Shown in pieces: positions 1,507 to 55,154 of a stretch of DNA of 64,000 bases. A program made the position numbers and the translations under genes. Positions within the stretch are counted from its first letter, which is position 1. Every line of letters starts with the position of its first letter. Below the pieces are notes generated by a model. The model saw only the letters and a program-made list of their open reading frames with translations. It searched no databases and was not told where the DNA came from. This DNA comes from Symmachiella dynata (lineage in GTDB: Bacteria; Planctomycetota; Planctomycetia; Planctomycetales; Planctomycetaceae), in assembly GCF_007747995.1 (NCBI RefSeq), contig NZ_CP036276.1, forward strand, positions 1,851,001 through 1,915,000, given 5' to 3'.

Positions 1507-1526
1507 GGGTGCCACTGGCGGCTCGT
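1507..1526. repeat. Left part of twin-hairpin element, interrupted by IS copy 1
   Basis: Reads GGGTGCCACTGGCGG and then the loop CTCGT. The matching arm CCGCCAGTG resumes after the insertion sequence at 3007. Removing the IS and one copy of CTCGT restores a perfect 9-bp stem with a 5-base loop. Confidence 0.85.
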
Positions 1527-3001
1527 CCCAATCCTGTTCGGCACGGAATTTGCGCCATGGGATATGGTAGTCGATAAAACTGCCAATTTGACGGGGAGGC
1601 GCCCTGTGGCCAGGAAGAAAGCGAAGCGGGTTTCCGATGCGGATTTGACCGGACTGAAATATCTGAAACGAATCTCTTCGCTGCTCAAACGCTTGCGGCC
1701 CGTCGGCTGCGAACGGGACAAAGCCGGCAATCGTGACTTGTTTTTTGATCAGTATTGCGGGTTGATGCTGCTGTCTATGTTCAACCCGATCGTCACTTCG
1801 CTGCGCGGCATGCAACAAACCAGCCAGCTCAAAAAAGTGCAACGCTTGCTCGGTTGCCAACGGGCTTCGCTGGGTTCGTTGTCCGAAGCGGCACGTGTGT
1901 TTGACCCGGAATTGCTGCGGGAAATCGCCGGTGAACTGCTCCAGCGCGCTCCGCAACGCGCCGACTGCGACCCGCGGCTGAAAGACTTTGCGCAGACCTT
2001 GACCGCCGTCGACGGCAGTCTGCTGAAGAAGCTGCCGCAAATCACGCAGGCCTGTTTCGCCACCCGCAACGATCGCGGTTTTAAGCTGCACGCGCACTTT
2101 GAAATCCTTAAAGGCGTGCCTGTCAAATCGGCAGTCACTGACGCCAGCGGCCAAGGACCGGCCAATGAAAAAAATGTGTTGCGCAGCCAATTGGAACCGG
2201 ATCGCTGCTACGTGATCGATCGCGGTTACGAACAATTTTCGCTGTTCAACGCGATCGTCGATGTCGGCAGCAGCTACGTTTGCCGCATCCGCAACGACCG
2301 CGCGTTTACGGCTGACGAGGTTCGCGAACTGGACGAGGAGGCGCGGGCGGCGGGCGTGTTGGAAGACGCCATCGGCCAACTCGGTTCGCCCAAATCGCGA
2401 CGGATTGAGCATCCGCAGCATCGCGTGCGGCGGGTGGTGATTCGCGCCGAAACGCATCCCAAGCGAGGCGGACGCAAGCGGGCCGCTGCCACGCACGACG
2501 TCGTGCTGGTGACGAACTTGCTGGACGTGCCGGCGGAAATCATCGCGTTGATTTATCGCAGTCGCTGGATGATCGAATTGTACTTTCGGTTTTTGAAACA
2601 TGTGCTGGGCTGCCGCAAGTTATTAAGCGACTGTGACAACGGAATCGAAATTCAAACGTACTGTGCGATCATCGCTTGCCTGCTGATCAGCCTAGTGACC
2701 GGCCGCAAGCCGACGCTGCGGACGTATGAAATGCTTTGTTATTACTTCCAAGGTTTGGCGGATGAAGAAGAACTACTGGCCCACATAAACCGTTTGCCGC
2801 CGCACGCCACGACAAGCGTCTAACCCCACTCGCTCCGCGACTCCCCGCAGATGACGAGCCGCTCAACGCTGCGCTGAGACAACTCCCCACCCCACCAACC
2901 GCAGCCCTTGCAGCCACGCCCTCCCCCAAAAAACAAGCAAACACACCGCCACCTTGCCATCACGCCCAACAATAGCAACAATCGAGCCGAACAGGATTGG
3001 G
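1527..3001 (+). mobile_element. IS4-type insertion sequence, copy 1
   Basis: A 1,475-bp element with one transposase gene. Its ends are inverted copies of CCCAATCCTGTTCGGC (16 bp). It is flanked by the direct repeat CTCGT (1522-1526 and 3002-3006), read as a 5-bp target duplication. The duplicated bases are exactly the loop of the twin-hairpin element into which it inserted. About 180 bp of non-coding sequence lie between the transposase stop and the right end. A second copy begins 49 bp downstream in the same orientation. Both copies look complete, so each could still be mobile. Confidence 0.92.
1606..2823 (+). CDS. IS4 family transposase (copy 1)
   Basis: DDE transposase that cuts and joins the element ends. 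It carries the IS4 signature Y-x2-R-x3-E-x6-K (Y, R, E and K in YRSRWMIELYFRFLK), with upstream aspartates in TAVDGS and YVIDRGY. I start it at a GTG preceded by GGGGAGG about seven bases upstream, giving MARKKAKR and 405 residues. An in-frame TTG lies 18 bases earlier. A longer reading frame from 1435 runs through the end of the rhomboid gene and the IS terminus and is not a plausible start. The protein differs from copy 2 at roughly eight positions, all outside the catalytic signature except one residue next to its Arg. Confidence 0.92.
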   Translation: MARKKAKRVSDADLTGLKYLKRISSLLKRLRPVGCERDKAGNRDLFFDQYCGLMLLSMFNPIVTSLRGMQQTSQLKKVQRLLGCQRASLGSLSEAARVFDPELLREIAGELLQRAPQRADCDPRLKDFAQTLTAVDGSLLKKLPQITQACFATRNDRGFKLHAHFEILKGVPVKSAVTDASGQGPANEKNVLRSQLEPDRCYVIDRGYEQFSLFNAIVDVGSSYVCRIRNDRAFTADEVRELDEEARAAGVLEDAIGQLGSPKSRRIEHPQHRVRRVVIRAETHPKRGGRKRAAATHDVVLVTNLLDVPAEIIALIYRSRWMIELYFRFLKHVLGCRKLLSDCDNGIEIQTYCAIIACLLISLVTGRKPTLRTYEMLCYYFQGLADEEELLAHINRLPPHATTSV

Positions 3002-3050
3002 CTCGTCCGCCAGTGCGGGGTGCATTCCCTGAAACACACAGGCGGGCAAG
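3002..3050. repeat. Core of a twin-hairpin element lying between two IS copies
   Basis: Only 49 bp separate the two insertion sequences. This is the middle of one twin-hairpin element: the right arm of hairpin 1 (CCGCCAGTG from 3007), a short core, and the left arm of hairpin 2 (CACAGGCGG then loop GCAAG ending at 3050). With both insertions removed the element is 79 bp, shorter than the 106-bp copies elsewhere in the window. Confidence 0.8.
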
Positions 3051-4526
3051 CCCAATCCTGTTCGGCACGGAATTTGCGCCATGGGCTTTGGTAGTCTTTC
3101 ATAACTGCCAATTTGACGGAGAGGCGCCCTGTGGCCAGGAAGAAAGCGAAGCGGGTTTCCGATGCGGATTTGACCGGACTGAAATATCTGAAACGAATCT
3201 CTTCGCTGCTCAAACGCTTGCGGCCCGTCGGCTGCGAACGGGACAAAGCGGGCAATCGCGACTTGTTTTTTGATCAGTATTGCGGGTTGATACTGCTGTA
3301 CATGTTCAACCCGATCGTCACTTCGCTGCGCGGCATGCAACAAACCAGCCAACTCAAAAAAGTGCAGCGCTTGCTGGGCTGCCAACGGGCTTCGCTGGGT
3401 TCGTTGTCCGAAGCGGCACGTGTGTTTGACCCGGAATTGCTGCGGGAAATCGCCGGTGAACTGCTCCAGCGCGCTCCGCAACGCGCCGACTGCGACCCGC
3501 GGCTGAAAGACTTCGCGCAGACCTTGACCGCCGTCGACGGCAGCCTGCTGAAGAAGCTGCCGCAAATCACGCAGGCCTGTTTTGCCACCCGCAACGATCG
3601 CGGTTTTAAGCTGCACGCGCACTTTGAAATCCTCAAAGGCGTGCCTGTCAAATCGGCAGTCACCGACGCCAGCGGCCAAGGACCGGCCAATGAAAAAAAC
3701 GTGTTGCGCAGCCAATTGGAACCGGACCGTTGTTACGTGATCGATCGCGGTTACGAACAATTTTCGCTGTTCAACGCGATCGTCGATGTCGGCAGCAGCT
3801 ACGTTTGCCGCATCCGCAACGACCGCACGTTTACGGCTGACGAGGTTCGCGAACTGGACGACGAGGCGCGGGTGGCGGGAGTGTTGGAAGACGCCATCGG
3901 CCAACTCGGCTCGCCCAAGTCGCGACGGATTGAGCATCCGCAGCATCGCGTGCGACGGGTTGTGATTCGCGCCGAAACGCATCCCAAACGAGGCGGACGC
4001 AAACGGGCCGCCGCCACGCACGACGTCGTACTGGTGACGAACTTGCTGGACGTGCCGGCGGAAATCCTTGCGTTGATTTATCGCTGCCGCTGGATGATCG
4101 AATTGTACTTTCGGTTTTTGAAACATGTGCTGGGCTGCCGCAAGTTATTAAGCGACTGTGACAACGGAATCGAAATTCAAACGTACTGTGCGATCATCGC
4201 TTGCCTGCTGATCAGCCTAGTGACCGGCCGCAAGCCGACGCTGCGGACGTATGAAATGCTTTGTTATTACTTCCAAGGTTTGGCGGATGAAGAAGAACTA
4301 CTGGCCCACATAAACCGTTTGCCGCCGCACGCCACGACAAGCGTCTAACCCCACTCGCTCCGCGACTCCCCGCAGATGACGAGCCGCTCAACGCTGCGCT
4401 GAGACAACTCCCCACCCCACCAACCGCAGCCCTTGCAGCCACGCCCTCCCCCAAAAAACAAGCAAACACACCGCCACCTTGCCATCACGCCCAACAATAG
4501 CAACAATCGAGCCGAACAGGATTGGG
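3051..4526 (+). mobile_element. IS4-type insertion sequence, copy 2
   Basis: A 1,476-bp near twin of copy 1 with the same 16-bp inverted ends (CCCAATCCTGTTCGGC). The flanking direct repeat is GCAAG (3046-3050 and 4527-4531), the loop of the second hairpin of the same element that copy 1 entered. Relative to copy 1 there is a one-base length difference and scattered substitutions in the first two thirds, while roughly the last 435 bp look identical. Confidence 0.92.
3131..4348 (+). CDS. IS4 family transposase (copy 2)
   Basis: Same length (405 residues from the GTG start) and same organisation as copy 1, including the YREK signature (YRCRWMIELYFRFLK) and the TAVDGS and YVIDRGY aspartates. GAGAGG sits about seven bases before the GTG. 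An in-frame TTG at 3113 is the alternative start. No frameshift or stop interrupts it, so the protein should be functional. Most of the nucleotide differences from copy 1 are silent, which suggests that both copies have been under selection or are recently derived from active parents. Confidence 0.92.
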   Translation: MARKKAKRVSDADLTGLKYLKRISSLLKRLRPVGCERDKAGNRDLFFDQYCGLILLYMFNPIVTSLRGMQQTSQLKKVQRLLGCQRASLGSLSEAARVFDPELLREIAGELLQRAPQRADCDPRLKDFAQTLTAVDGSLLKKLPQITQACFATRNDRGFKLHAHFEILKGVPVKSAVTDASGQGPANEKNVLRSQLEPDRCYVIDRGYEQFSLFNAIVDVGSSYVCRIRNDRTFTADEVRELDDEARVAGVLEDAIGQLGSPKSRRIEHPQHRVRRVVIRAETHPKRGGRKRAAATHDVVLVTNLLDVPAEILALIYRCRWMIELYFRFLKHVLGCRKLLSDCDNGIEIQTYCAIIACLLISLVTGRKPTLRTYEMLCYYFQGLADEEELLAHINRLPPHATTSV

Positions 4527-4546
4527 GCAAGCCGCCAGTGCCACCC
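4527..4546. repeat. Right end of the IS-interrupted twin-hairpin element
   Basis: The duplicated loop GCAAG, then the stem arm CCGCCAGTG and the terminal CCACCC. This closes the element whose left end is at 1507. It is followed by a short G-rich run. Confidence 0.8.
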
Positions 4547-4584: not shown

Positions 4585-7053
4585 TCAATCGACGAACAAA
4601 AACTCGTTCGCGTTAAATAACAACCGGCACGCATTGGCTAGGCCATGTTGTTCGGCGTAAGCAGTCAGCGTCTGCGATTCTTGCTCGCTGGGCGCGCGTC
4701 CCAGGGCGGTCTGAAAGGCGAAGGCAATTTGCGCCGGCAGCCCTTCGGCTTGCGCTTGGGCGCGTGCAGCAAAATGTTCCGCTTGTCGCACCATGAATTT
4801 GTTATTCAGCAGCGATAGCGCCTGCAGCGCCGTGACGGTGGAGTTTCGCACCGGCACATTCTGCGAGGGATCCGCACAGTCGAGCGTTTCCATGAAGGGA
4901 TCGGGGACTGAGCGGACGATGAAACGGTAAATGCTCCGTCGCAATCCACGGGGATCGTCGGGATCATATTTGTCGTACAAATAGTGCGGCGAGTGGTCAT
5001 CGATGAAACCAAACAGATCAAAGCCCGGCCCATACATGGTCGTGTCCAATTTCCCACTGGTCGCCAACACAGCATCTCGTAGCGCTTCGGCTTCTAGTTG
5101 TCGGCGATTCATACGCCAGAGGAATTGGTTCCCCGAATCGATCTTCGAATTCTGTTCGTCATGCGCCGTCGATTGACGATAAGCAGCGCTAGTGACGATT
5201 AACTTGTGCAACCGTTTGAGCGACTGTCCGTTGTCACGAAAATCGGCCGCCAGCCAGTCGAGTAGTTCGGGATGCGTCGGCGTCGCCCCCATGTGACCAA
5301 AATCATTGGGGCTGTCGACGATTGCGCTGCCAAAATGGTAATGCCATACGCGATTGACGATTGACCGCCAGGTGAGCGGGTTTTTGGTGTCGGTAATCCA
5401 GGCTGCCAATTGGACCCGCCGCGCTCCTTCGTCATCGGGATTGTCGAGTTGGAATCGCGATGGCAATCCGGGGATGCAACCGACCGTTCCGGGTTGCATA
5501 ATATCGCCCGGCTGTTTTTCGCTTCCCCGATTGAGCAGATGAATCTCGCGCGGCTGGCCACCGGTGGGGCGAAAACTTCCCGTATTAGGAAAATTGGTCG
5601 CAGCGGCATAAACCAACGGCGGTTTGGGCAACTTGGCCAAGGCCGCCTCAATGGGGGCCAACTGTTTTTCCAATTCCGCCACATCGGTTTTGGCTTTTTT
5701 GGCCGTATTGATTTTCGCACGGAGGTCGTTTCGCTCTGCCGTCAATTTTGCGCGTTCTGCCTCTACTTCGGCATCGATTTTATAGGGACGTGGTGCGCGA
5801 TCGATCCCGGCGAACACTGCTTGCAAGCTGTAGTAATCCGCCTGGGTGATGGGATCGAACTTGTGGTCGTGGCACCGCGCGCAGTGCACTGTCAAACTGC
5901 AAAAGGTGGCCATCGTGTTCGTGACCATATCGTCCCGGTCGAGGTTGCGGGTGATCGTTTTATCAAGTGTCCCTTCACGCAGTTCTACGTGGCCCACAAA
6001 ATCCCACGGCCCGGCAACGACAAAACCGGTGGCGATAATGCCATCCGGTTCGTTGGGAAAGAGCACGTCACCGGCTAATTGTTCGCGGACAAATTGCGCA
6101 TAGGGTTTGTCGTCGTTGAGTGAACGGATCACATAATCACGATAGGGCCACGCATTAGGGCGACGCTTGTCTTTGTCGTAGCCGTGCGTGTCGCCATAAT
6201 GCACCACATCGAGCCAATGCCGCGCCCAACGTTCGCCATACCGCGGCGAAGCCAACAACCGGTCGACCAATTTGTCATAGGCGGCCGGATCAGAGTCGGC
6301 CACGAATGCGTCAATCTCCTCCTGTGTCGGCGGCAGGCCGTGCAAATCAAACGTCAACCGGCGAATGAGCGTGCGGCGATCCGCTTCGGGGTTGGGAGTG
6401 AGTTTTTTCTGCGTAAGTTTTTCGAGAATGAACGCATCAACCGGCGTGCGGATCCACGGCGACTTCGCTGGCGGGACCGGCGGTTTAGCAAGCGGCCTGA
6501 GCGACCACCAATCGCCATCGCCCGGCTTGGGTTGGAGGATTTTTGCCTCGGGCCAGTTCGCCCCGGATTTGATCCATTGCCGCAAGTCTGCAATTTGTTC
6601 TTGGGTCAGGGGAGGGCCCCCTTCGGGCATCGCCGGATCCTCGCCGGTGACCATCTCCAACAGCAGACTTTCCTCGACCGCAGCGGCAAGCACCTCACCA
6701 CTATCACCACCCTCGTGTAAGCCCTTGGCTGTAGAAAGATCCAAGCCCCCTTTTGCGTTGTCTCCATTGTGGCAACGCACGCAACGCCGTTCGAGCACTG
6801 GTGCGACCCGTTTGAGAAACAAGTCCTCATCAGCCCGTACCGCGGGCGCGAGTGCCAGGAAGATCGACAGTCCAACGAAAACGATGACACGCGGGTGCCA
6901 CTGGCGGCTTGTCCGCCAGTGCGCACGGTTCTTGACTTCACGACGGCTAGAAACCGCGTCCGTAACTTGCACTGGCGGGAAAGCCGCCGGCGGCACCCGT
7001 CTTAGTGAGGCTACCAAACATTGTTGAATTGTTGCCATTCGTATTCGCATCAT
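4585..7053 (-). CDS. DUF1549/DUF1553 (PSCyt1-PSCyt2-PSD1) c-type cytochrome protein
   Basis: A planctomycete-type secreted protein of 822 residues. A PSCyt1 haem site C-V-R-C-H is at residues 91-95, followed by a DUF1549 region (from about residue 200, SPWIRTPVDAFILEKL) and a second C-x2-C-H (CARCHDHKFDP). The C-terminal third is DUF1553-like (NPLTWRSIVNRVWHYHFG, and LNNKFMVRQAEHFA near the end). Such proteins are thought to work in periplasmic redox steps linked to polymer breakdown, but the exact substrate is unknown. GAAGG lies just before the chosen ATG. Unusually, the region between this start and the hydrophobic signal segment (residues 56-73) is encoded by a twin-hairpin repeat, so the signal peptide is displaced about 55 residues from the start. 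Confidence 0.88.
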   Translation of the reverse strand: MMRIRMATIQQCLVASLRRVPPAAFPPVQVTDAVSSRREVKNRAHWRTSRQWHPRVIVFVGLSIFLALAPAVRADEDLFLKRVAPVLERRCVRCHNGDNAKGGLDLSTAKGLHEGGDSGEVLAAAVEESLLLEMVTGEDPAMPEGGPPLTQEQIADLRQWIKSGANWPEAKILQPKPGDGDWWSLRPLAKPPVPPAKSPWIRTPVDAFILEKLTQKKLTPNPEADRRTLIRRLTFDLHGLPPTQEEIDAFVADSDPAAYDKLVDRLLASPRYGERWARHWLDVVHYGDTHGYDKDKRRPNAWPYRDYVIRSLNDDKPYAQFVREQLAGDVLFPNEPDGIIATGFVVAGPWDFVGHVELREGTLDKTITRNLDRDDMVTNTMATFCSLTVHCARCHDHKFDPITQADYYSLQAVFAGIDRAPRPYKIDAEVEAERAKLTAERNDLRAKINTAKKAKTDVAELEKQLAPIEAALAKLPKPPLVYAAATNFPNTGSFRPTGGQPREIHLLNRGSEKQPGDIMQPGTVGCIPGLPSRFQLDNPDDEGARRVQLAAWITDTKNPLTWRSIVNRVWHYHFGSAIVDSPNDFGHMGATPTHPELLDWLAADFRDNGQSLKRLHKLIVTSAAYRQSTAHDEQNSKIDSGNQFLWRMNRRQLEAEALRDAVLATSGKLDTTMYGPGFDLFGFIDDHSPHYLYDKYDPDDPRGLRRSIYRFIVRSVPDPFMETLDCADPSQNVPVRNSTVTALQALSLLNNKFMVRQAEHFAARAQAQAEGLPAQIAFAFQTALGRAPSEQESQTLTAYAEQHGLANACRLLFNANEFLFVD
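6893..6998. repeat. Twin-hairpin element, 106 bp, inside the 5' end of the cytochrome gene
   Basis: Left hairpin: CACTGGCGG, loop CTTGT, CCGCCAGTG. Right hairpin: CACTGGCGG, loop GAAAG, CCGCCGGCG. The outer ends are GGGTGCC and GGCACCC. Loops fall at positions 16-20 and 87-91 of the unit, mirror-symmetric. It is read in frame by the cytochrome gene on the opposite strand, the only copy in the window inside a reading frame. Confidence 0.85.
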
Positions 7054-18401: not shown

Positions 18402-18421
18402 GGGTGCCACTGGCGGCTTGT
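18402..18421. repeat. Left part of a 106-bp twin-hairpin element, interrupted by an IS
   Basis: GGGTGCCACTGGCGG and the loop CTTGT, then the insertion sequence. The rest of the element resumes at 19756. Removing the IS and one CTTGT gives a unit of exactly 106 bp. Confidence 0.88.
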
Positions 18422-19755
18422 CCCACAACTGTCCGGTTTAATTCTTCGGTTCTTGTCGTAACTCTCTATGAAATTCAACACTTTCGGCAATTTTCAGGCG
18501 CGCACGACTTCAACTCACGGGGGTGATGTCGCCATCCTTTTTGTTCTCTCTGGCAAAAAGGAGCCGCGTAATGTTCGAAGGTCAGATGGTGTTTCCACAA
18601 CTGTTGGCGTTTCTTCCGCGACGGATATTGGACAATTGCGTGCGACGCTATCACGGCAACAAACGTGTTCGTGCGTTGTCGTGTCGCGATCAGTTTTTGG
18701 CCATGATGTTTGCGCAATTGACCGCGCGGGAAAGTTTGCGCGATATCGAAATCTGCCTCACCGCCGTACAGTCGAAACTGTTTCATGCCGGGTTTCGCGG
18801 GCCCATCAAACGCAGCACGTTGGCCGATGCCAATCGCCTCAGAGATTGGCGGATCTGGCAGGACTTGGGATTGGCTTTGATCGACCGGGCGCGACAACTG
18901 TACGCCGCCGACCCGTTGCCCAGCGAGTTGCAAACCGCTGCCTACGCGTTGGACGCCACGGTTCTCAATCTTTCGCTGACGTTGTTTCCTTGGGCTCCTT
19001 CGCAGCGCGACAAAGCGGCGATCAAACTGCACACGCTGCTCGACCTGCAAGGCAATATCCCCTGTTTTTTGCGGATTTCGGGCACAAGAACTCGCGACTG
19101 CGCGATGCTCGACGAAGTGCCCGTCGAAGCCGGATCGCTGTACGTGATGGATCGCGACTACAACGATTACGGCCGTTTGCACCGGCTTCATCAAGCGGGA
19201 GCGTTCTTCCTGGTGCGGGCCAAAAGCAATCTCACCTACCGCCGCCAGAGATCGCAAACCGTGGATCGCACAACGGGATTGCGGAGCGATCAAATCATTC
19301 TGCTCAAAGACCGCCGAACGTTTCGGAAGTATCCCGACCGCCTGCGTCGCATCACATTTTTCAATGCCGAGACGCGCCGCCGTTTTGTTTTCATTGGCAA
19401 TCAGTTTTTGCTTTCGGCAGCCGACCTGGTGGAGTTGTATTGGCGGCGTTGGGACATCGAACTGTTTTTCAAATGGGTCAAACAACATCTGCGAATCAAA
19501 CACTTTGTGGGCAATACTCCCAACGCAGTGCGGACACAAATCTGGATTGCAGTGAGCACTTATGTGCTCGTCGCCATCCTCCGCCGAGAATTGCGGATCG
19601 AACGGACGATGTCCGAAATCTTACAGATTCTGAGCGTCACAATTTTCGAGAAAACCCCTATAAAAACAGTGTTAAACGAGATTCAGTTTCAATCCCAGGT
19701 ACGGCAAAACCATAAACAGTTATCATTGTTCGACTTATAACCGGACAGTTGTGGG
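18422..19755 (+). mobile_element. IS4-type insertion sequence with DUF4372-like transposase
   Basis: A 1,334-bp element with 17-bp inverted ends (CCCACAACTGTCCGGTT) and flanking direct repeats CTTGT (18417-18421 and 19756-19760). The duplicated bases are again the loop of a twin-hairpin element. The terminal sequence and the transposase differ from the 1.5/3.1-kb copies apart from the shared first three bases CCC, so this is a separate element type that chose the same kind of site. The transposase stop codon abuts the right inverted repeat. Confidence 0.92.
18571..19740 (+). CDS. IS4 family transposase with DUF4372-like N-terminus
   Basis: 389 residues. The N-terminal part (CRDQFLAMMFAQLTARESLRD and STLADANRLRDW) is typical of the DUF4372-type head of IS4 transposases. 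Catalytic aspartates are in YALDATV and YVMDRDY, and the IS4 signature Y-x2-R-x3-E-x6-K is in YWRRWDIELFFKWVK. AAGGAG lies seven bases before the ATG at 18571; an ATG 48 bases upstream gives a longer frame but has no ribosome site. The gene is intact. Confidence 0.93.
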   Translation: MFEGQMVFPQLLAFLPRRILDNCVRRYHGNKRVRALSCRDQFLAMMFAQLTARESLRDIEICLTAVQSKLFHAGFRGPIKRSTLADANRLRDWRIWQDLGLALIDRARQLYAADPLPSELQTAAYALDATVLNLSLTLFPWAPSQRDKAAIKLHTLLDLQGNIPCFLRISGTRTRDCAMLDEVPVEAGSLYVMDRDYNDYGRLHRLHQAGAFFLVRAKSNLTYRRQRSQTVDRTTGLRSDQIILLKDRRTFRKYPDRLRRITFFNAETRRRFVFIGNQFLLSAADLVELYWRRWDIELFFKWVKQHLRIKHFVGNTPNAVRTQIWIAVSTYVLVAILRRELRIERTMSEILQILSVTIFEKTPIKTVLNEIQFQSQVRQNHKQLSLFDL

Positions 19756-19846
19756 CTTGTCCGCCAGTGCGGTGGCAGGTCAAGTTTTCTATGCGAACCG
19801 ACGACAAACGACGAGCACACTACTGGGCAAGCCAGCAGTGGCACCC
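19756..19846. repeat. Remainder of the IS-interrupted 106-bp twin-hairpin element
   Basis: Duplicated loop CTTGT, arm CCGCCAGTG, a core of variable sequence, then the right hairpin CACTACTGG, loop GCAAG, CCAGCAGTG, and the terminal GGCACCC. One mismatch interrupts the right stem. Confidence 0.85.
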
Positions 19847-21808: not shown

Positions 21809-22144
21809 CCGCCAATCGATTTTGCCTGACCGTGATTATCTTGGCCACCGATTGAACACAGATAAAACACAGATTTCCGAAGTGACTTACTGAAATCCCA
21901 AACCGACGGCTTGCCGTCGCATTGTGCGTTCCGTGACAGACAACACGCCGGGTGTGTGTTTCGTGGTACGAAACCAATGGGATATGAGCAGGAGGGTAAT
22001 TTTCCTAGGCTTGTAAACCCGCACTGAAACAAAGCTATTGCAAAACGGCAACCTCGCCCCACAACCATCATGCACAAATGGATCGATCCCCCGCGACTCC
22101 TTGGCGGCCTTTGCGGCTTTGCGTGAGGCTTTTTTTAGCGCAGA
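21809..22144. other. Intergenic region with two dispersed repeats
   Basis: 336 bp between convergent genes. It holds a copy of the CGACGGC palindrome repeat (21896-21930) and, at 22090-22133, a fragment with GGCGGCCTTTGCGGC and GCGTGAGGC related to pieces at 12.4-12.6 kb. No gene is seen. Confidence 0.55.
21896..21930. repeat. Short palindromic repeat, CGACGGC family
   Basis: TCCCAAAC followed by the palindrome CGACGGC-TT-GCCGTCG and a conserved tail ending TGCGTT. Two relatives occur at 34455 and 57856. All three are intergenic. Confidence 0.65.
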
Positions 22145-27530: not shown

Positions 27531-27559
27531 CACTGTCGGACGAGCCGACAGTGGCACCC
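27531..27559. repeat. Half of a twin-hairpin element
   Basis: Hairpin CACTGTCGG, loop ACGAG, CCGACAGTG followed by GGCACCC. The stem covaries relative to the usual CACTGGCGG/CCGCCAGTG pair, so pairing is kept. The left half is absent or too degraded to recognise. Confidence 0.7.
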
Positions 27560-30007: not shown

Positions 30008-30113
30008 GGGTGCCACTGGCGGCTTGTCCGCTAGTGCGATATCCCCAAGCGTCTACCGTTTGAATTCAAATCAACCGACGTGCACACTGACGGACGAGCC
30101 GCCAGTGCCACCC
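30008..30113. repeat. Twin-hairpin element, 106 bp, complete
   Basis: Left hairpin CACTGGCGG, loop CTTGT, CCGCTAGTG; right hairpin CACTGACGG, loop ACGAG, CCGCCAGTG; outer ends GGGTGCC and GCCACCC. Same length and loop positions as the copies at 6893 and 18402, with a different core. It is free of insertion sequences. Confidence 0.88.
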
Positions 30114-31961: not shown

Positions 31962-32457
31962 GCGAGGTTCCTCCAACAAATTCGGAAAGCCCAGCGGGCC
32001 GACGACGAAAACGCGAATTTCCGACAGGCGGCTGCATCCGGACGGGAAAATGCTCGAACCCATCCAACGGGATGGGTATCGCGAGCGATCTTTTTAAAAT
32101 ACGTAAAACCCGTTTCAAAAACCGGTTGCGCTTGTTTTAGAGATTTGCAGAACAGGGTCGGCAGAACGCGACAGAAGGTTTTGAAACGACTTAAGGCAGA
32201 TACTTAAGTCTAAGACGCGGGATTGTAGCGGTCAAGAAGCGTGGACCGGTTACGCAGAATTGTGCAGCAGTAAACACCTGTTAAAAATCGCCGCTGATGT
32301 GCGGCGGAAATCACTTGCCAGCAGCGACCCGGTGTGCGAGACTGGAATGAACTGCCCAGCAAGGTCCTATTGCGGTCAGGTTGAATTGATCCCGCGCCAC
32401 CGTCGTCGCGCGGGCAGGTGAGGAAACTCCTAAGACATTCCTGCGGAGAAGAATTCG
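31962..32457. other. Intergenic region between divergent sppA and a secreted protein gene
   Basis: 496 bp. It includes the sppA ribosome site on the minus strand, the partial palindrome AAACCCGTTTCAAAAACCGG near 32105, and the stem-like CGCCGC ... GCGGCG near 32290. No gene is seen, and no terminator or promoter is clear. Confidence 0.5.
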
Positions 32458-38185: not shown

Positions 38186-38745
38186 CTATTCGCTCCCCCC
38201 TTTGAAATCGAGCCTCACACAAACGAATTGCGGTTGCGCACAAGATGGCGAGATAGGCTGTAGGGATTTCAAGCGTGAGCCCTGAGGGGACAGGTGTGAG
38301 TACCAACCAAGAGGGAAGCACGCGTTGTTTACGACGGGGTGGCAAGTGAAAAACCTATGTGCATTGAGGCTCGTTCACGAGCCTTCTCACTGCTCGGCTT
38401 GAGCCTGTGTGTCCATGGCTAAAGCCCTCACAGCGAGAACCTCCGTGGAACGGAGGTAGAATGATGAGAATGCCCCCCATAATCCCCGTCGTAAACAACG
38501 GGGCTAATACCGCTGCGCGGGAAGCCCGGTGAACCGGGCTTGCTGTACAGCGACAGTCCTTGCGGTCCGACGCAGGGTACTCGTCATTTGCCTGAACAGA
38601 GCCTTGAAGCTGTAGACTGTAGTCCATAGGGCTGGCAGATGATGGCCATTTGGAACGGCATTGAATTTACTGGCCACCGGCCACTCGCCACCGGCCACTT
38701 CGTCTGCCTACTGCCTACTGCCTACCGCCTACCGCCTACCGCCTA
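38186..38745. other. Intergenic region holding hairpins and tandem repeats
   Basis: 560 bp between two minus-strand genes. It holds a hairpin array (38367-38548) and a composite tandem repeat (38670-38747), listed separately. TGAGGGGACAGGTGTGAG at 38285 matches a piece in the mdh upstream region. No gene is seen. Confidence 0.6.
38367..38548. repeat. Array of four hairpins, REP-like
   Basis: In order: AGGCTCG-TTCA-CGAGCCT (38367), ACCTCCGT-GGA-ACGGAGGT (38439), CCCCGTCGTAAACAACGGGG (38484), AAGCCCGG-TGAA-CCGGGCTT (38522). The last two, joined by GCTAATACCGC, match in inverse the element at 42830-42880 upstream of the RAYT gene. Confidence 0.7.
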
Positions 38746-38747
38746 CT
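38670..38747. repeat. Composite tandem repeat (inverse orientation), abuts a stop codon
   Basis: TGGCCACCGGCCACT-type decamers, then six heptamers: three CTGCCTA and three CCGCCTA (38704-38745). The array ends at the stop codon of the MOSC gene. Same architecture as 41714-41780 and 42691-42784, inverted. Confidence 0.8.
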
Positions 38748-39231
38748 AACCCTCCAGCACCCGAACCGCATCCCCCACACGCACCGTGCCCGCTTCAAGC
38801 ACGATCGTGCAGATCCCGCCGTGCCCCCGCATAGCCGCATAACCACCGTCGCCAAGATTGTATTCCATTCGCGAGCAAGGGGCGCAGGGACCGGTTCCCT
38901 CTAGCACGACGTTGCCGATGCTGAACTTGCGATCCTTGAGCGCGATCAGGTTGATCCCTGATACGACAATATTTCGCCGCAATAGCCCGGGGTCGATTGG
39001 GTCGCGGCCCAAGATGGCGCCGATGAATGGCAAGTGCTCGTGCTGAATCAACGTCACTTGCCGTTTGGAATTGTCCCCTTGAGCATGATGCTCGCCCACA
39101 ATGCCATGACCGACGACGATCTCGACTTCGTCCTTGGGTTGGATTGTCGCCATCCGAGCATCACTGATGCCGATCCACTCCACGCGTCCGACTTGCGGAA
39201 CGTATGTTTTCAGGTCTTTATCAGCGGACAT
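38746..39231 (-). CDS. MOSC domain protein
   Basis: 161 residues covering one MOSC domain, a fold shared with the C-terminus of molybdenum cofactor sulfurases. Visible marks are GIVGEHHA, RRNIVVSGINLIAL, and GPCAPCSRM with the conserved Cys. Function could be sulfur-carrier or reductase work on N-hydroxylated or molybdenum-linked substrates. GAGGAGAG lies just upstream of the chosen ATG; the frame continues 72 codons further but the extra part is not family-like. The stop codon is followed directly by heptamer repeats. Confidence 0.85.
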   Translation of the reverse strand: MSADKDLKTYVPQVGRVEWIGISDARMATIQPKDEVEIVVGHGIVGEHHAQGDNSKRQVTLIQHEHLPFIGAILGRDPIDPGLLRRNIVVSGINLIALKDRKFSIGNVVLEGTGPCAPCSRMEYNLGDGGYAAMRGHGGICTIVLEAGTVRVGDAVRVLEG

Positions 39232-39389: not shown

Positions 39390-41720
39390 ATGAAATGCTC
39401 GAAAACTCTGACTCTTTGTCTGTTATTCTCCCTAACCGCAGCGGCAAACGCCCAAACCGGTCCGCCGCTGGCGGGGACGAAACCGCTCCGGTTGCGGGGT
39501 GATCTTTCTCAACGGATGCGTGAGGGGATCGACAAATATCTCACTCGCGAAACGGCCGCCACTGTCCGCTCTCGTCAAAAATTCTGGAACCCCGATTATT
39601 CCTCCCGCGAAGCCTACGAAAAATCAATCGCCGCGAATCGGCGGCGCTTTGCGTATGACATCGGCGCCAGCGATGAACTTCACACCGTCGCTGCATTGGA
39701 GTTAATCGAAACGCTCGATCAACCCGCGCTCATCGCCCGTACCGACCAGTATGCCGTCTTCGCCGTCCGCTGGCCCGCTTTTGGCAATGTCTACGGCGAA
39801 GGCTTGTTGCTGGAGCCGTTGGCACAACCAATCGGTGTCGTCGTTGCCATCCCCGATGCCGATCAGACACCGGAGATGCTCATTGGTTCGGCGCCCGGTA
39901 TCGCACCCCGATCGCAATTCGCCCGTCGCTTGGCCGAGCAAGGCTTCCGTGTGGTCGTGCCGGTGCTGATTGATCGTAGCGACGAATGGGCGGGCAATCC
40001 GGCGGTGATGATGACCAACCAAACACACCGCGAATGGATTTACCGCAGCGCATACCCCATGGGCCGCCACATCATTGGATATGAAGTGAACAAAATCCTC
40101 GCCCTGGTCGATTGGCTCTCACGGCAAGGCAAACCGGGCGATACGATCGGCGTTGCTGGTTATGGCGAAGGCGGGCTGTTGGCCCTCTATACGGCCGCCC
40201 TTGATCCTCGCATCGACGCCACCCTGGTCAGCGGATATTTCGATTCGCGGCAGGATGTCTGGCAAGAGCCGATTTACCGCAACGTGTTCGGACTGCTCCA
40301 GGAATTCGGCGATGCCGAGATCGCCGGGATGATTGCGCCGCGAGCTTTGATTGTTGAACATAGCATCGCCCCGGAAGTCGATGGCCCACCCAAGTTGCGG
40401 CCGGGCCGTTTGGAGTCAGCAGCACCGGGACGCTTGACGACTCCGACATTCGCCTCGGTCGACGCCGAAGTCGCTCGCGTTCGGACCCGCTTTCCCGCCC
40501 AAGCGGAGATCCGCCCGAACATCACTCTCATCGCGGGCAAGACCGGCGACCCAATTCCGTTGGGTTCCGACGACGCACTGTCGGCATTTATAAAAGCGCT
40601 GGAGATTGACCAACCATTGAGACCCGCAGGGAATCTCCCAGTCGATACCCGTAGCGACTTCGATCCCGGACCGCGCCAACAGCGGCAAGTCCAACAACTG
40701 ATCGATCACACGATGCACTTGCTGGCTGACTCGCATCATGTCCGGGAAAAATTCTGGGAACCGATCAAACCAACGTCGATCGAAGATTGGCAGCAAGGGA
40801 CCGCCCGCTATCGTGAAGCCATGCTGGAAGAACTGATCGGCCGTTTGCCCCCGGCGACGCTGCCCCCCAATGCCCGCACGCGGCAAATTGACGATCAGCC
40901 GAAATGGACCGGTTACGAAGTGGTCCTGGATGTCTATCCCGATGTGATTTGTTGGGGGTATTTGTTGGTCCCCAAGGACATTCAAGAGGGCGAGAAACGT
41001 CCCGTCGTCGTTTGTCAGCACGGTCTCGAAGGGACGCCAGAATCCGTTGTCACCGACGACCCCGACAAGCGCGACTCCCAGATCTATGGCTCGTACGCCG
41101 CCAAATTGGCCGACGAAGGCTTTGTGACGTATGCTCCGCACAATTTCTACGCGGGAGGCAATGAATTCCGGCAATTGCAGCGAAAGGCAAATCCGCTGAA
41201 AAATACGCTATTCGGCATCACGACCGTGCAGCACCAACAGATGCTGGATTGGCTGAGTAGCCTGCCGTTTGTCGATCCGCAGCGAATTGGGTTTTATGGG
41301 CTTTCCTATGGCGGAAACACGGCCACCCGCGTGCCGGCGATCCTTGAGCAATACGCCTGTGTGATTGATTCCGGAGATTTCAATGAGTGGGTAACGAAAA
41401 CCGTCTCCGTCCATTACAATTATTGTTTCCCCCCGCTGGGCGCCTACGAAGTTGGCGAGTTCAATCTCGGCCACACCTTCAATCATTCCGACATGGTCGG
41501 CTTGATCGCCCCGCGACCGTTTATGGTCGAGCGGGGACACAAAGACGGCGTCGCGCCGGATGAATGGGTCGCAGCAGAATACGCCCGCGTCCGCCGCCTG
41601 TACGTCGAACTTGGCATCCCTGAGCGAACTGAAATTGAGTTTTTTAACGGACCTCACAAGATCAACGGCGTGGGGACGTTTGAGTTTTTACGGAAACATT
41701 TGAATTGGCCGGAGCAGTAG
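39390..41720 (+). CDS. Secreted two-domain alpha/beta hydrolase
   Basis: 776 residues with a Sec signal peptide (1-21, LTAAANAQ). Two alpha/beta-hydrolase-like domains lie in tandem. The first (about 140-410) has the elbow G-Y-G-E-G-G (257-262), with glycine in the nucleophile place and no obvious serine. The second (about 500-770) has an intact G-L-S-Y-G-G (S639), with RPVVVCQHGLEG as the oxyanion strand and a likely acid and His in RPFMVERGHKDGV and NGPHKING. The second domain should be an esterase or peptidase. This is the reverse order of active and inactive halves seen in the 13.6-kb hydrolase. The stop codon lies in a tandem repeat. Confidence 0.82.
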   Translation: MKCSKTLTLCLLFSLTAAANAQTGPPLAGTKPLRLRGDLSQRMREGIDKYLTRETAATVRSRQKFWNPDYSSREAYEKSIAANRRRFAYDIGASDELHTVAALELIETLDQPALIARTDQYAVFAVRWPAFGNVYGEGLLLEPLAQPIGVVVAIPDADQTPEMLIGSAPGIAPRSQFARRLAEQGFRVVVPVLIDRSDEWAGNPAVMMTNQTHREWIYRSAYPMGRHIIGYEVNKILALVDWLSRQGKPGDTIGVAGYGEGGLLALYTAALDPRIDATLVSGYFDSRQDVWQEPIYRNVFGLLQEFGDAEIAGMIAPRALIVEHSIAPEVDGPPKLRPGRLESAAPGRLTTPTFASVDAEVARVRTRFPAQAEIRPNITLIAGKTGDPIPLGSDDALSAFIKALEIDQPLRPAGNLPVDTRSDFDPGPRQQRQVQQLIDHTMHLLADSHHVREKFWEPIKPTSIEDWQQGTARYREAMLEELIGRLPPATLPPNARTRQIDDQPKWTGYEVVLDVYPDVICWGYLLVPKDIQEGEKRPVVVCQHGLEGTPESVVTDDPDKRDSQIYGSYAAKLADEGFVTYAPHNFYAGGNEFRQLQRKANPLKNTLFGITTVQHQQMLDWLSSLPFVDPQRIGFYGLSYGGNTATRVPAILEQYACVIDSGDFNEWVTKTVSVHYNYCFPPLGAYEVGEFNLGHTFNHSDMVGLIAPRPFMVERGHKDGVAPDEWVAAEYARVRRLYVELGIPERTEIEFFNGPHKINGVGTFEFLRKHLNWPEQ

Positions 41721-41780
41721 GCAGTAGGCAGTAGGCAGAAAAAGTGGCCGGTGGTCAGTGGCCGGTGGCCAGAAAAAAAC
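41714..41780. repeat. Composite tandem repeat overlapping a stop codon
   Basis: Three heptamers GCAGTAG (41714-41734), then GCAGAAAAA, then a GTGGCCGG/TGGTCAGTGGCC decamer block. The first TAG is the stop codon of the hydrolase gene, so the array begins inside the coding frame. Confidence 0.82.
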
Positions 41781-41883
41781 GCCGTGCCAAGCAGCGATCA
41801 TCTGCCAACCCTACGGCCTAAAGTCTACAGCCTAAAGCCTAACCACAGGCCTGTCACCTTTTTTAAAAAACGGAATCAACGCG

Positions 41884-42675
41884 ATGCAACCTGCTAAAGA
41901 ATTAATTGCGAAAGTCAATCGGGGCGAACTGACGACGGGGCCGCTGGTGATCGATCATCTCTGGCCTGGACTGATGGATCATGTGCTGCGTGCCGAAATG
42001 GATTACATGATCGTTTGTATGGAACACAGTTGCCACAACACCGAACGCGTGGCGGAGATGTGCGCGCTCGGTCGGTTGGCCAATTTTCCGGTCCTGGTTC
42101 GTCCGCCGAAACTCGATTTCAGTACGATCTCTCGCACGATGGATCTGGGCGCTTGCGGCATGTTGTTGCCGACGGTCGAAACGCCGGAGCAGTTGGATGT
42201 CGTCCGCGATGCCATCCGCGTCCCCCCGCGCGGCCGCCGCCGTCCGGGTGGAATGGGAAATCGTTGGATCAAGGATATGACCGCCGCCGACTGGGAAAAA
42301 GACGTCGAACAAGATGTCATCATCCTGCCGCAAATCGAGAGTCAAAAGGGCATGGACCACCTCGACGCAATCGTTGGCCACGAAGTGACCACCTGCGCCG
42401 CCATCGGTCCCTACGACCTTTCACACGACCTGGGCGTCGGCGCGCAGTGGGACAATCCCAAATTCCTCACAGCCCGCGACGAAATCCGCGCCGCCGCCAA
42501 GCGGGCCGGCAAAGTCATGTGGATGATCGGCGACGGCCCGTCCCTAGCTAAAGAGGGATTCACCTTTCTCTGCGTCGGCGAACCCTCGGTGATCCTGGAA
42601 TCGGCGATGACACAAATCGTCAAACAAACCCGTGGCGAAGCGAGCGAAGAGTCACTGCGCGGGTACAATGCGTGA
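41884..42675 (+). CDS. HpcH/HpaI aldolase/citrate lyase family protein
   Basis: 263 residues, single TIM-barrel domain. Metal and substrate residues of the class II aldolase family are visible: the Glu in MEHSCHN, the Glu in IILPQIES and the Asp in [11 protein letters not shown]. Members split 4-hydroxy-2-oxo acids to pyruvate and an aldehyde; the substrate here is unknown. No signal peptide, so cytoplasmic. A tandem repeat array begins about 15 bases after its stop. Confidence 0.88.
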
Positions 42676-42684
42676 GGCAGTGGC

Positions 42685-42784
<100 letters not shown>

Positions 42785-42829
42785 AAGAAGGAGTGGTTGT
42801 TGGTGAGTGTGCGTGGGTGGTTTACGCCG

Positions 42830-42880
42830 GTTGACCGGCGTTTCCGCGAAGCGGTATTAGCCCCGTCGTTTACGGCGGGG
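42830..42880. repeat. REP-like hairpin pair upstream of the RAYT gene
   Basis: GCCGG-TTGA-CCGGC and CCCCGTCG-TTTA-CGGCGGGG joined by a short link with GCGGTATTAG. An inverted relative lies at 38484-38541. Such paired hairpins next to a RAYT gene fit known REP organisation. Confidence 0.75.
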
Positions 42881-42920
42881 GAAAGCTACCTCGCACAGGT
42901 AGCACACGAGGTTCCCGGCA

Positions 42921-42972
42921 ATGTTGTGCGCGGGTCTCCCGACCCCGCACTGCCCCTGACCGAAGGTCTCCC
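42921..42972. repeat. Left inverted repeat flanking the RAYT gene
   Basis: Begins GTTGTGCGCGGGTCTCCC, then GACCCCGCAC and GACCGAAGGTCTCCC. The reverse complement occurs after the gene at 43590-43640 with a few changes. Confidence 0.8.
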
Positions 42973-43015
42973 TGCCCCCCCACCGCAAGAATACGAATCG
43001 GAAAGCCAAACAACT

Positions 43016-43564
43016 ATGGAACGCTACCGAATTCGAACCGATGCCGTCGTCTATTTTGTGACCTACAGCATTGTTGATTGGCTCCCAGTGTTTGTTTCCG
43101 AGCAAGCATGCAAAATTGTGACCGACAGCTTCAGTTTTTGCCATGGCCAGAAAAACCTGCGCATCAATGCCTACGTGATCATGCCGACACATCTCCACGC
43201 GATCGTTTTTGATAAAAATTTCGATTCCAAGAGTTTAGAAAAAACTTTGTTCGATTTTCGAAAGTTCACCGGTCGTCAACTGAGCGATTACTGCATGCAA
43301 CACGCTCCCCCATGTTTTGTTACGACCCTCAAAGCTGCGGCGAGCAAAGATCGTGAGCGCCGCTTTTGGCAGTCGAGCCGACATCCTGAGGCGATCGAAA
43401 CGGAAGCATTCTGGAAACAGAAGTTGGACTACATCCACGAAAACCCTTGCCGTAAAGGGCTGGTCACTCGGGGAGCGGATTGGCGATTTTCATCCGCGCG
43501 GTATTTCGTGTCGGACGGACGAGAGAACGGTGATGTGGAAATTAGTGCTTTGGATTGGGGGTAA
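43016..43564 (+). CDS. REP-associated tyrosine transposase (RAYT)
   Basis: 182 residues of the Y1_Tnp (IS200/IS605-like) family. The HUH motif is MPTHLHAIV (H59, H61) and the single catalytic tyrosine lies in KLDYIHENP (Y139), as in RAYT proteins that act on single-stranded REP hairpins. The ATG starts MERYRIRT; the frame extends 82 codons upstream but through the inverted repeat and hairpins, so those are not coding. Inverted repeats lie on both sides, and REP-like hairpins stand upstream. RAYTs are usually single-copy domesticated transposases that spread REPs. It seems intact. Confidence 0.88.
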   Translation: MERYRIRTDAVVYFVTYSIVDWLPVFVSEQACKIVTDSFSFCHGQKNLRINAYVIMPTHLHAIVFDKNFDSKSLEKTLFDFRKFTGRQLSDYCMQHAPPCFVTTLKAAASKDRERRFWQSSRHPEAIETEAFWKQKLDYIHENPCRKGLVTRGADWRFSSARYFVSDGRENGDVEISALDWG

Positions 43565-43589: not shown

Positions 43590-43708
43590 GGGAGACCTTT
43601 GGTCGCGGTCTGTGCGGGGTCGGGAGACCCGCGCACAACTTAGGGGAGACCCGCGCACAACATAGAGGTCACCCGCGCACAACATTGTCACCTGCGCACA
43701 ACATTGCC
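43590..43708. repeat. Right inverted repeat of the RAYT region plus tandem tail
   Basis: First the reverse complement of the left repeat (43590-43640), then further copies of the end of it: GGGAGACCCGCGCACAAC, AGGTCACCCGCGCACAAC and TGTCACCTGCGCACAAC (to 43704). The shared unit is about 18-24 bp with the core GCGCACAACAT. Confidence 0.78.
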
Positions 43709-54777: not shown

Positions 54778-55154
54778 GATATGGGCCGTTATGAGACACG
54801 GGCCGGAAAAGGGGGCCACTGGCGGCTTGTCCGCCAGAGCGGAATCACGAGATCCACAAGACACTGCTGGACCAGCCAGCCAGCAGAGGCACCCCACTCA
54901 CCAGTGAGGTCTTGTTTTCATCGGGCTGTTCGCTTGCACGTTCCCGTTCGACCTGGGGGTGAAGTCTGGTATCCGCCCTTTTCCTATTTGAGACGCGTTA
55001 AACCGGGTGGTGTTGTCAAGATCTGCCGGTCCTGCCGGTTTTTCCCCAGCTTCCGCTGCAATGCGACGATACCGATGACACGGCGTTTTCGATTGTGCGC
55101 ATCGACGATGCACGGAAACGCAGACGGAATCTGCTTACCCATACGGTAACGACG
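54778..55154. other. Region between flgK and flgL with a twin-hairpin element
   Basis: 377 bp. Besides the element at 54811-54895 it holds CCGGTCCTGCCGG-type repeats near 55022-55040. An open frame from 55095 leads into flgL but its first 20 codons look non-coding. The gap suggests a separate promoter for flgL, but none is clear. Confidence 0.5.
54811..54895. repeat. Twin-hairpin element, short variant
   Basis: Left hairpin CACTGGCGG, loop CTTGT, CCGCCAGAG; right hairpin CACTGCTGG, loop ACCAG, CCAGCCAGCAGAG with a 4-base insertion, then GGCACCCC. About 85 bp, shorter than the 106-bp copies. Confidence 0.78.

Follow-up and report, generated by a model that had tools for sequence, protein, structure and literature searches.

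Paired GTGC-headed hairpins of a probable REPIN/RAYT system in the planctomycete Symmachiella dynata

A 106-bp twin-hairpin element that recurs in a 64-kb window of the Symmachiella dynata genome (the window being the whole stretch of 64,000 nucleotides that was analysed) very probably belongs to a REPIN/RAYT system in which GTGC takes the place of the canonical GT[AG]G head. Each REPIN would be a non-autonomous unit of two outward-facing REP hairpins (head GTGC, 9-bp stem, 5-nt loop), mobilised in trans by the product of a Y1 HUH transposase (RAYT) gene at G000:C1:5481701-5482288. The hairpins are paired heads outward, at two fixed lengths and with covarying stems. They frame the RAYT gene here and RAYT genes in many relatives, and they are present in one species and absent from another at corresponding sites.

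Hairpin pairs in the window and across the genome

Three copies of 106 bp lie in the window, with loops at unit positions 16-20 and 87-91, as the sequence-only reading had described them. The copy at 30008..30113 (unstranded) joins two type A halves around a core without detectable kinship to the 106-bp consensus. The copy at 6893..6998 (unstranded) lies inside a PSCyt1/PSCyt2/PSD1 gene near its N-terminus and is missing in G001, a relative of the same genus. In the third, an insertion sequence, IS-B, has split the left loop: the left part (18402..18421, +) ends in a loop copy CTTGT, IS-B follows (18422..19755, +; IS4 family, DUF4372 and DDE_Tnp_1, terminal inverted repeat CCCACAACTGTCCGG), and 19756..19846 (+) holds the second CTTGT and the rest of the REPIN, so that 18402-18421 plus 19761-19846 gives 106 bp once IS-B and one 5-bp duplicate are discounted. 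Folded as single-stranded DNA, three whole units gave z scores of −5.8 to −6.7 (−29.9 kcal/mol, z −6.27 at 30008..30113; −38.2 kcal/mol, z −6.74 at 6893..6998).

The shorter variants are also as first described. The copy at 1507-4546 comes to 79 bp by arithmetic without its two insertion sequences: its left part with loop copy CTCGT (1507..1526, +), IS-A copy 1 (1527..3001, +; IS4 family, the family model having been run on copy 2; terminal inverted repeat CCCAATCCTGTTCGG), a middle with the second CTCGT, the core and the first GCAAG of the right loop (3002..3050, +), IS-A copy 2 in the right-hand loop (3051..4526, +), and the second GCAAG with the end of the unit (4527..4546, +). A unit of 84 bp with one stem degraded lies at 54811..54894 (unstranded). 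The compensated stem reported near 27531 is present, in a solitary half (27531..27559, −; CACTGTCGG/CCGACAGTG).

Three other repeats of the window are recorded here as separate observations: an approximately 89-bp repeat with complementary ends GTTTCAAAA...TTTTGAAAC at 32104-32192, which has dozens of matches in the same-genus genomes G001 and G002; a 35-nt hairpin repeat, CCCAAACCGACGGCTTGCCGTCG..., in three copies at 21897, 34456 and 57857; and AGGCAGT tandem arrays with inverted GTGGCCGGTGG repeats at about 38.5-42.9 kb (41705-42785 and 38484-38751).

A type A half-element consists of a GGGTGC head, a 9-bp stem CACTGGCGG/CCGCCAGTG and a CTTGT loop; in type B halves the stem is CACTGCTGG/CCAGCAGTG. 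Allowing up to three mismatches, the whole genome (7.77 Mb, one contig) holds 117 matches to type A, and there are 88 to type B, with few places common to both lists. This amounts to approximately 200 halves, and reversed-pattern controls gave 0. A set of tiles totalling 1.264 Mb, an unbiased sample of the genome for this purpose, contained 46 halves with at most 5 mismatches in 24 fixed positions and the reversed sequence none. The abundance of the half-element is thus far above chance. The 24-position consensus had taken the place of a looser head-plus-hairpin scan, which was dropped after returning 650 matches versus 639 in its reversed control. The halves listed are headed by GTGC and not by the GT[AG]G of the canonical GTAG REP superfamily, a point against the REPIN/RAYT reading; the CGTC tag is absent from them, their foot being GTGC and their 3' side variable. 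Since neither head test was positive, we place the element in neither the GTAG nor the CGTC superfamily.

Pairing has a preferred polarity. Within 250 bp of each other, strict halves form 60 heads-outward pairs, against 4 same-way neighbours and no tails-outward ones, these counts being drawn from 1.47 Mb of fetched sequence that is enriched for places already known to carry halves. With a mate allowed up to 7 mismatches, a facing mate is present for 105 of the 153 well-preserved halves, against 2 with a mate on the outer side, and in the unbiased tiles the corresponding figures are 16 of 30 halves versus 1. The lengths fall into two sharp peaks: of the 60 strict pairs, 31 measure 79/80 bp and 16 measure 106 bp, other lengths making up 13. 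In full, the lengths in bp are 78 (2), 79 (14), 80 (17), 81 (1), 82 (2), 102 (1), 105 (1), 106 (16), 107 (1), 108 (1), 109 (1), 113 (1), 149 (1) and 156 (1). The short class is mostly an A+B heterodimer (32/36), the long class mostly A+A (16/21). An inverted, heads-outward doublet at a sharply preferred spacing is what characterises a REPIN; that many halves are single counts against this reading. Hence the twin unit proposed from the sequence survives, the lengths being peaked and the hairpins not mostly alone, but 106 bp is one of two preferred lengths, and the less common of them.

Long cores share a directional consensus: 13 of 21 score above the 95% point obtained by shuffling each core (12 of these exactly 106 bp long, as are 4 of the 8 below the bound), in a test that left aside the IS-split copy at 18402 and is partly circular because the copies tested also supplied the consensus. 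Nine long cores are 83-90% identical in register, and of the 36 short-class cores 28 lie above a bound of the same kind. Most copies of exactly 106 bp (12/16) therefore resemble the consensus, and in most copies the core is not almost unrelated, as it had appeared to be because both uninterrupted 106-bp copies in the window, 6893 and 30008, are among the four that fall below the bound. The idea that spacing rather than core sequence is selected keeps some weak support; since most 106-bp copies have a common core, much of the constant length would reflect common descent, with a length constraint possible for the remaining copies.

The stems covary, as had been suggested. Among 22 distinct halves, hand-chosen for diversity from this genome and its relatives, 98% of cells pair and five of the nine base pairs are altered on both sides; both-side changes number 18 cells against 3.1 expected from shuffling, a figure reached in 0 of 500 shuffles. 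A larger set of 108 distinct halves gave 93 compensated changed cells versus 35.6 in shuffles (maximum 50). A further 125 changed cells in this set are one-sided or broken, so stem decay is also common.

Tandem halves occur as well: at G000:C1:1319686-1319800 (locus L008) three halves follow one another directly, 42-44 bp apart, where G001 has one. This is a local amplification of single REPs.

A predicted RAYT gene between the hairpins, and absence in a relative

Eight Y1_Tnp matches were found in the genome. One, at G000:C1:5481701-5482288, 3.6 Mb from the window, lies between two of these hairpins: one half ends 12 bp beyond the stop codon, while the other half is inverted, has a stem that starts 23 bp before the ATG, and is split at the loop by IS-A. 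The product scores 91.3 bits against NF047646 REP_Tyr_transpos (cut-off 80), its translation carries EHVH, WQ and YIHENP stretches (HUH and Y motifs), and its sole match among solved structures is a chain of TnpArep 4er8 (E 4.6e-6). Judged by these sequence features, the locus is a predicted RAYT gene framed by REPIN hairpins.

The other seven Y1_Tnp loci were considered as mobilisers and rejected, no half being present in the 3.2-3.4 kb read around any of them. Three have repeats of another kind, L034 and L035 being framed by other palindromes and L038 by a TGTAGGGCAGG repeat; the palindromes recorded for these RAYT-like genes are GGCCCCGAAAGA.TCTTTCGGGGCC and TGTAGGGCAGGCTCCCGCCTGCC. Several REP families therefore coexist in the genome. 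The window itself carries a distant RAYT-like gene at 42770-43564 (+) (G000:C1:1894049-1894513, E 3.1e-11); inverted repeats of 66 nt occupy 42907-42972 and 43590-43655.

The framing recurs in other genomes. We inspected the best 80 of 135 RAYT relatives from GTDB genomes. Among these 80, GTGC-headed hairpins stand on both sides at 14, on one side at 9 and on neither side at 12 of the 35 loci with at least 45% identity, and on both sides at 1 and on one side at 2 of the 45 more distant loci; distant windows gave 7/228 for the close loci and 1/295 for the more distant ones. GT[AG]G heads on both sides were found at 8 of the 45 distant loci and 1 of the 35 close ones, again within the best 80 of 135 (distant windows, 4/295 and 1/228). 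The 12 close loci in this set that lack a GTGC hairpin in the strict test count against the REPIN/RAYT reading, though one of them has GTGG on both sides. GTGC is thus the head at most close relatives and GTGG or GTAG are found mostly further out, with exceptions both ways (L271, L279, L290 and L291). The stems around these genes vary (CACTGCTGG, CACTGGC, CACTGGCG, CATGCCCACG and others) yet stay paired. In G005:C137, for example, a RAYT gene at 2940-3500 is framed by halves at 2871 and 3564.

Type A halves occur in 16 of 59 genomes, this one included, and a RAYT match in 43 of 59. Several genomes count against a simple correspondence between the two: G014 has 25 type A halves and no RAYT match, G001 has 51 and distant RAYTs only, and G040 and G020 have RAYTs 63% and 59% identical and no type A half, in a search that used the type A stem only. 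Separately, G039, of another family, holds 141 type-A-like halves, with stems mostly CACTGGCTG/CAGCCAGTG among the matches listed, and its nearest RAYT is 37% identical.

By analogy with published TnpAREP work, the RAYT would bind the hairpins on single-stranded DNA and cut beside them with the head as guide, and the unit would be reinserted without target duplication. In the published REPIN proposal a RAYT dimer acts on the REP doublet, so that spacer length is kept and spacer sequence drifts (PMC3116915, in the part available to us). The earlier suggestion of a protein that holds both hairpins fits this proposal in outline, as it does the presence of a RAYT gene framed by the hairpins. Under the cross-pairing rule tested on TnpAMb (PMC8266576, as far as accessible), the cutting dinucleotide predicted for a GTGC head would be GC or GA. 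Because the flanks are subfamily-specific, we claim no universal cutting dinucleotide from them.

Insertion was read by comparison with G001, which is syntenic and 91.2% identical over 105 long matches, and in which no RAYT match exceeds 28% identity. It holds 17 halves in 1.2 Mb versus 46 in 1.264 Mb here, its 51 halves being the total of type A matches. Both flanks pointed to a site in G001 for 27 of the 38 tile elements and failed to do so for the remaining 11; 15 alignments were read, several of them too indel-rich for a call. The clearest case is the copy at 6893, where G001 reads ...ACG|TTTTAA against ...ACACG[...]TCTTAG here, an insertion of approximately 108 bp at which two ambiguous bases are the only sign of a duplication. 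It is in frame and adds 36 residues to the N-terminal part of the PSCyt1/PSCyt2/PSD1 protein, ahead of an apparent signal peptide (judged by eye, from a putative start codon). Among the sites read, no other shows a bare REPIN with a clean empty counterpart; that there is a single such case, ambiguous by 2 bp, counts against the reading. At the site corresponding to 30008, G001 has a different short-stem unit, also of the GTGC kind.

These absences bear on whether the units are instead fixed-length regulatory hairpins (terminators, RNAs or nucleoid-protein sites), spread by recombination, kept for their function and not mobile. The window copies do lie mostly between long ORFs in a mechanical ORF list, the three units tested fold strongly, and binding of gyrase, IHF and DNA polymerase I to REPs has been published (PMC6006769 and PMC1525189, in the parts consulted). 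However, the 91%-identical relative lacks copies at orthologous sites, a few of the joins being precise; one ORF contains a copy in frame; and the hairpins frame a RAYT gene. Rfam at its gathering threshold returned tRNA only, with no family on the REPIN stretches. We consider such a regulatory origin very unlikely. A promoter and terminator scan of 26-32 kb of the window found nothing above shuffles.

Other transposition machineries at the same hairpins

Part of the short class has an additional layer. Outer arms, CAGCCCGTTGAAAAA, stand at fixed distances from the hairpins: at least one arm is present in 19 of 36 short pairs, both in 8 and none in 17 (control, 2 in 72 flanks), whereas 1 of 21 strict long pairs has an arm (control, 0 in 42 flanks). 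Four empty sites in G001 show duplications of CTAG, CTAA, CTAT and a diverged TTAA/TTGA. The CTAT site (1737130) holds a long-type unit with a decayed mate, the left arm and a different right arm, and the other three hold short-type units. The arm pattern has 33 matches genome-wide (control 2), comprising the 8 ends of four pairs spaced 1500-1514 bp apart, the size of an insertion sequence, 14 beside known halves and 11 others; in the tiles, at up to 4 mismatches, 7 of 17 arm matches are near a half and 10 are not (reversed control 4). The one IS-sized pair that was read has CTAG on both sides and encodes a DDE transposase with DUF772, for which the nearest NCBIfam model is IS1182 (196.8 bits); since the cut-off is 270, the family name is tentative. 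To the right of the 84-bp unit at 54811..54894, a possible relic of an outer arm has 4 mismatches.

We had read the arms as extra REPIN sequence and dropped that reading because of the YTAR duplication and the full-length insertion sequence with the same ends. Ends common to an autonomous IS and a target duplication, which define a DDE-type MITE, are a feature of the short class and not of the 106-bp class. Roughly one short unit in two is thus carried by a MITE belonging to a DDE insertion sequence, with YTAR as the target duplication. How the units move, which had been left open, is thereby narrowed, with a copy at 6893 whose empty site shows no clear duplication and outer-arm units with 4-bp YTAR duplications.

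One could go further and take every unit for an ordinary MITE mobilised by a DDE transposase, with hairpins that are only part of long inverted ends and a RAYT that is incidental. The arms on 19 of 36 short pairs (both on 8), the four empty sites with YTAR-like duplications (one diverged; three of short and one of long type) and the four arm pairs at 1500-1514 bp, one of them read and encoding a DDE transposase, all speak for this. Yet an arm accompanies a single strict long pair in 21, 17 of the 36 short pairs are armless, and both the RAYT frame and the 6893 copy are without outer arms, which makes the general MITE reading improbable. We therefore retain the REPIN/RAYT reading and, because about half of the short class is in a MITE with DDE IS ends, add that this class can also spread by the DDE route, which may explain the spread of much of it.

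The loops, in turn, are a target of insertion sequences. All 11 full copies of IS-A (at least 98% identity) lie in half-element loops, in both orientations, as do all three full copies of IS-B (at least 99% identity). The duplication is exactly the 5-bp loop in 13 of these 14 copies, and one (L061) has an extra C on the left; the count is without one IS-B-like fragment (55% over 71 residues, one stop). With the IS4 transposase model, IS-A scores 183.5 and IS-B 253.8 bits (cut-off 115). One occupied site has an uninterrupted hairpin at the orthologous position in G001. IS-C, 31% identical to IS-A, has all three of its copies in a short-stem relative of the hairpin, with duplications CAAAG, CTTCG and CAGAG, the borders of one being mutated. 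The 9-mer GGCT[CT]G[CT]CC lies inside halves at 33 of its 108 tile sites, versus 14 of 14 full IS copies, so that the bare 9-mer seems insufficient as a target. We conclude that IS-A and IS-B, both of the IS4 family, use the hairpin loop as their target.

That the hairpins are primarily integration targets, maintained by these IS4-family elements, might be argued from the 14 of 14 IS-A and IS-B copies in loops and from IS-C, whose three copies all lie in a related short hairpin. Most hairpins, however, are empty (14 occupied loops versus approximately 200 halves), and in other genomes hairpins of a similar kind stand around RAYT genes; we regard this as extremely improbable. Within the REPIN/RAYT reading, we give about an even chance to the fuller picture of a planctomycete REP/RAYT branch with a GTGC guide, a REPIN captured by a DDE MITE and a loop that serves as an IS4-family landing pad, that is, three transposition machineries that share a 30-bp hairpin and differ in the junctions they leave.

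Comparison with known systems

Planctomycete REPs and many tyrosine transposases are already known, in the form of GTAG- and CGTC-tagged REPs that include those of R. baltica, as are REPs in frame inside genes, like the copy at 6893 (PMC3733652, in the part seen). The main text of that paper, apart from figures and supplements, has no word beginning GTGC. Among openly available texts, figures and supplements aside, we found nothing closer among the titles listed than PMC3733652 and PMC6006769, both consulted in part, for a planctomycete REPIN/RAYT system, and a literature search for Rhodopirellula with repetitive extragenic palindromic gave no match.

The closest parallel in organisation is with the REPINs of Pseudomonas fluorescens SBW25, which in the accessible part of PMC3116915 are likewise inverted REP doublets with a variable spacer and a RAYT near the same hairpins. 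In both systems two spacings are preferred: the 16-mers of SBW25 lie 71 or 110 bp apart, and the units here measure 79/80 or 106 bp. Unlike the GT[AG]G-headed SBW25 elements, those described here have a GTGC head and a planctomycete host, and their short units combine two different stem types (32 of 36), about half of this class being inside a DDE-type MITE. The RAYT/TnpAREP systems described in the consulted parts of PMC2817692, PMC8266576 and PMC6006769 also have a Y1 HUH transposase gene between two inverted REPs; the difference here is the GTGC head at most close relatives. The experimental REP work consulted rests on proteobacterial GTAG heads, and selection of the cut by the head has been shown only in part (PMC8266576, as far as available). 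The guide rule could readily be tested on a natural clade of GTGC-headed RAYTs whose more distant relatives mostly have GTGG or GTAG heads.

The loop-targeting IS4-family elements likewise provide a test within one genome of whether a transposase reads the hairpin or the sequence alone. Targeting of REPs by this family is already known from ISRm22 of Sinorhizobium meliloti, all copies of which lie in REPs at the palindrome axis (PMC1525189, from the part consulted). In the same source ISRm22 makes a six-base duplication, perfect in six of nine cases, whereas that of IS-A and IS-B is five bases long and equal to the loop in 13 of 14.
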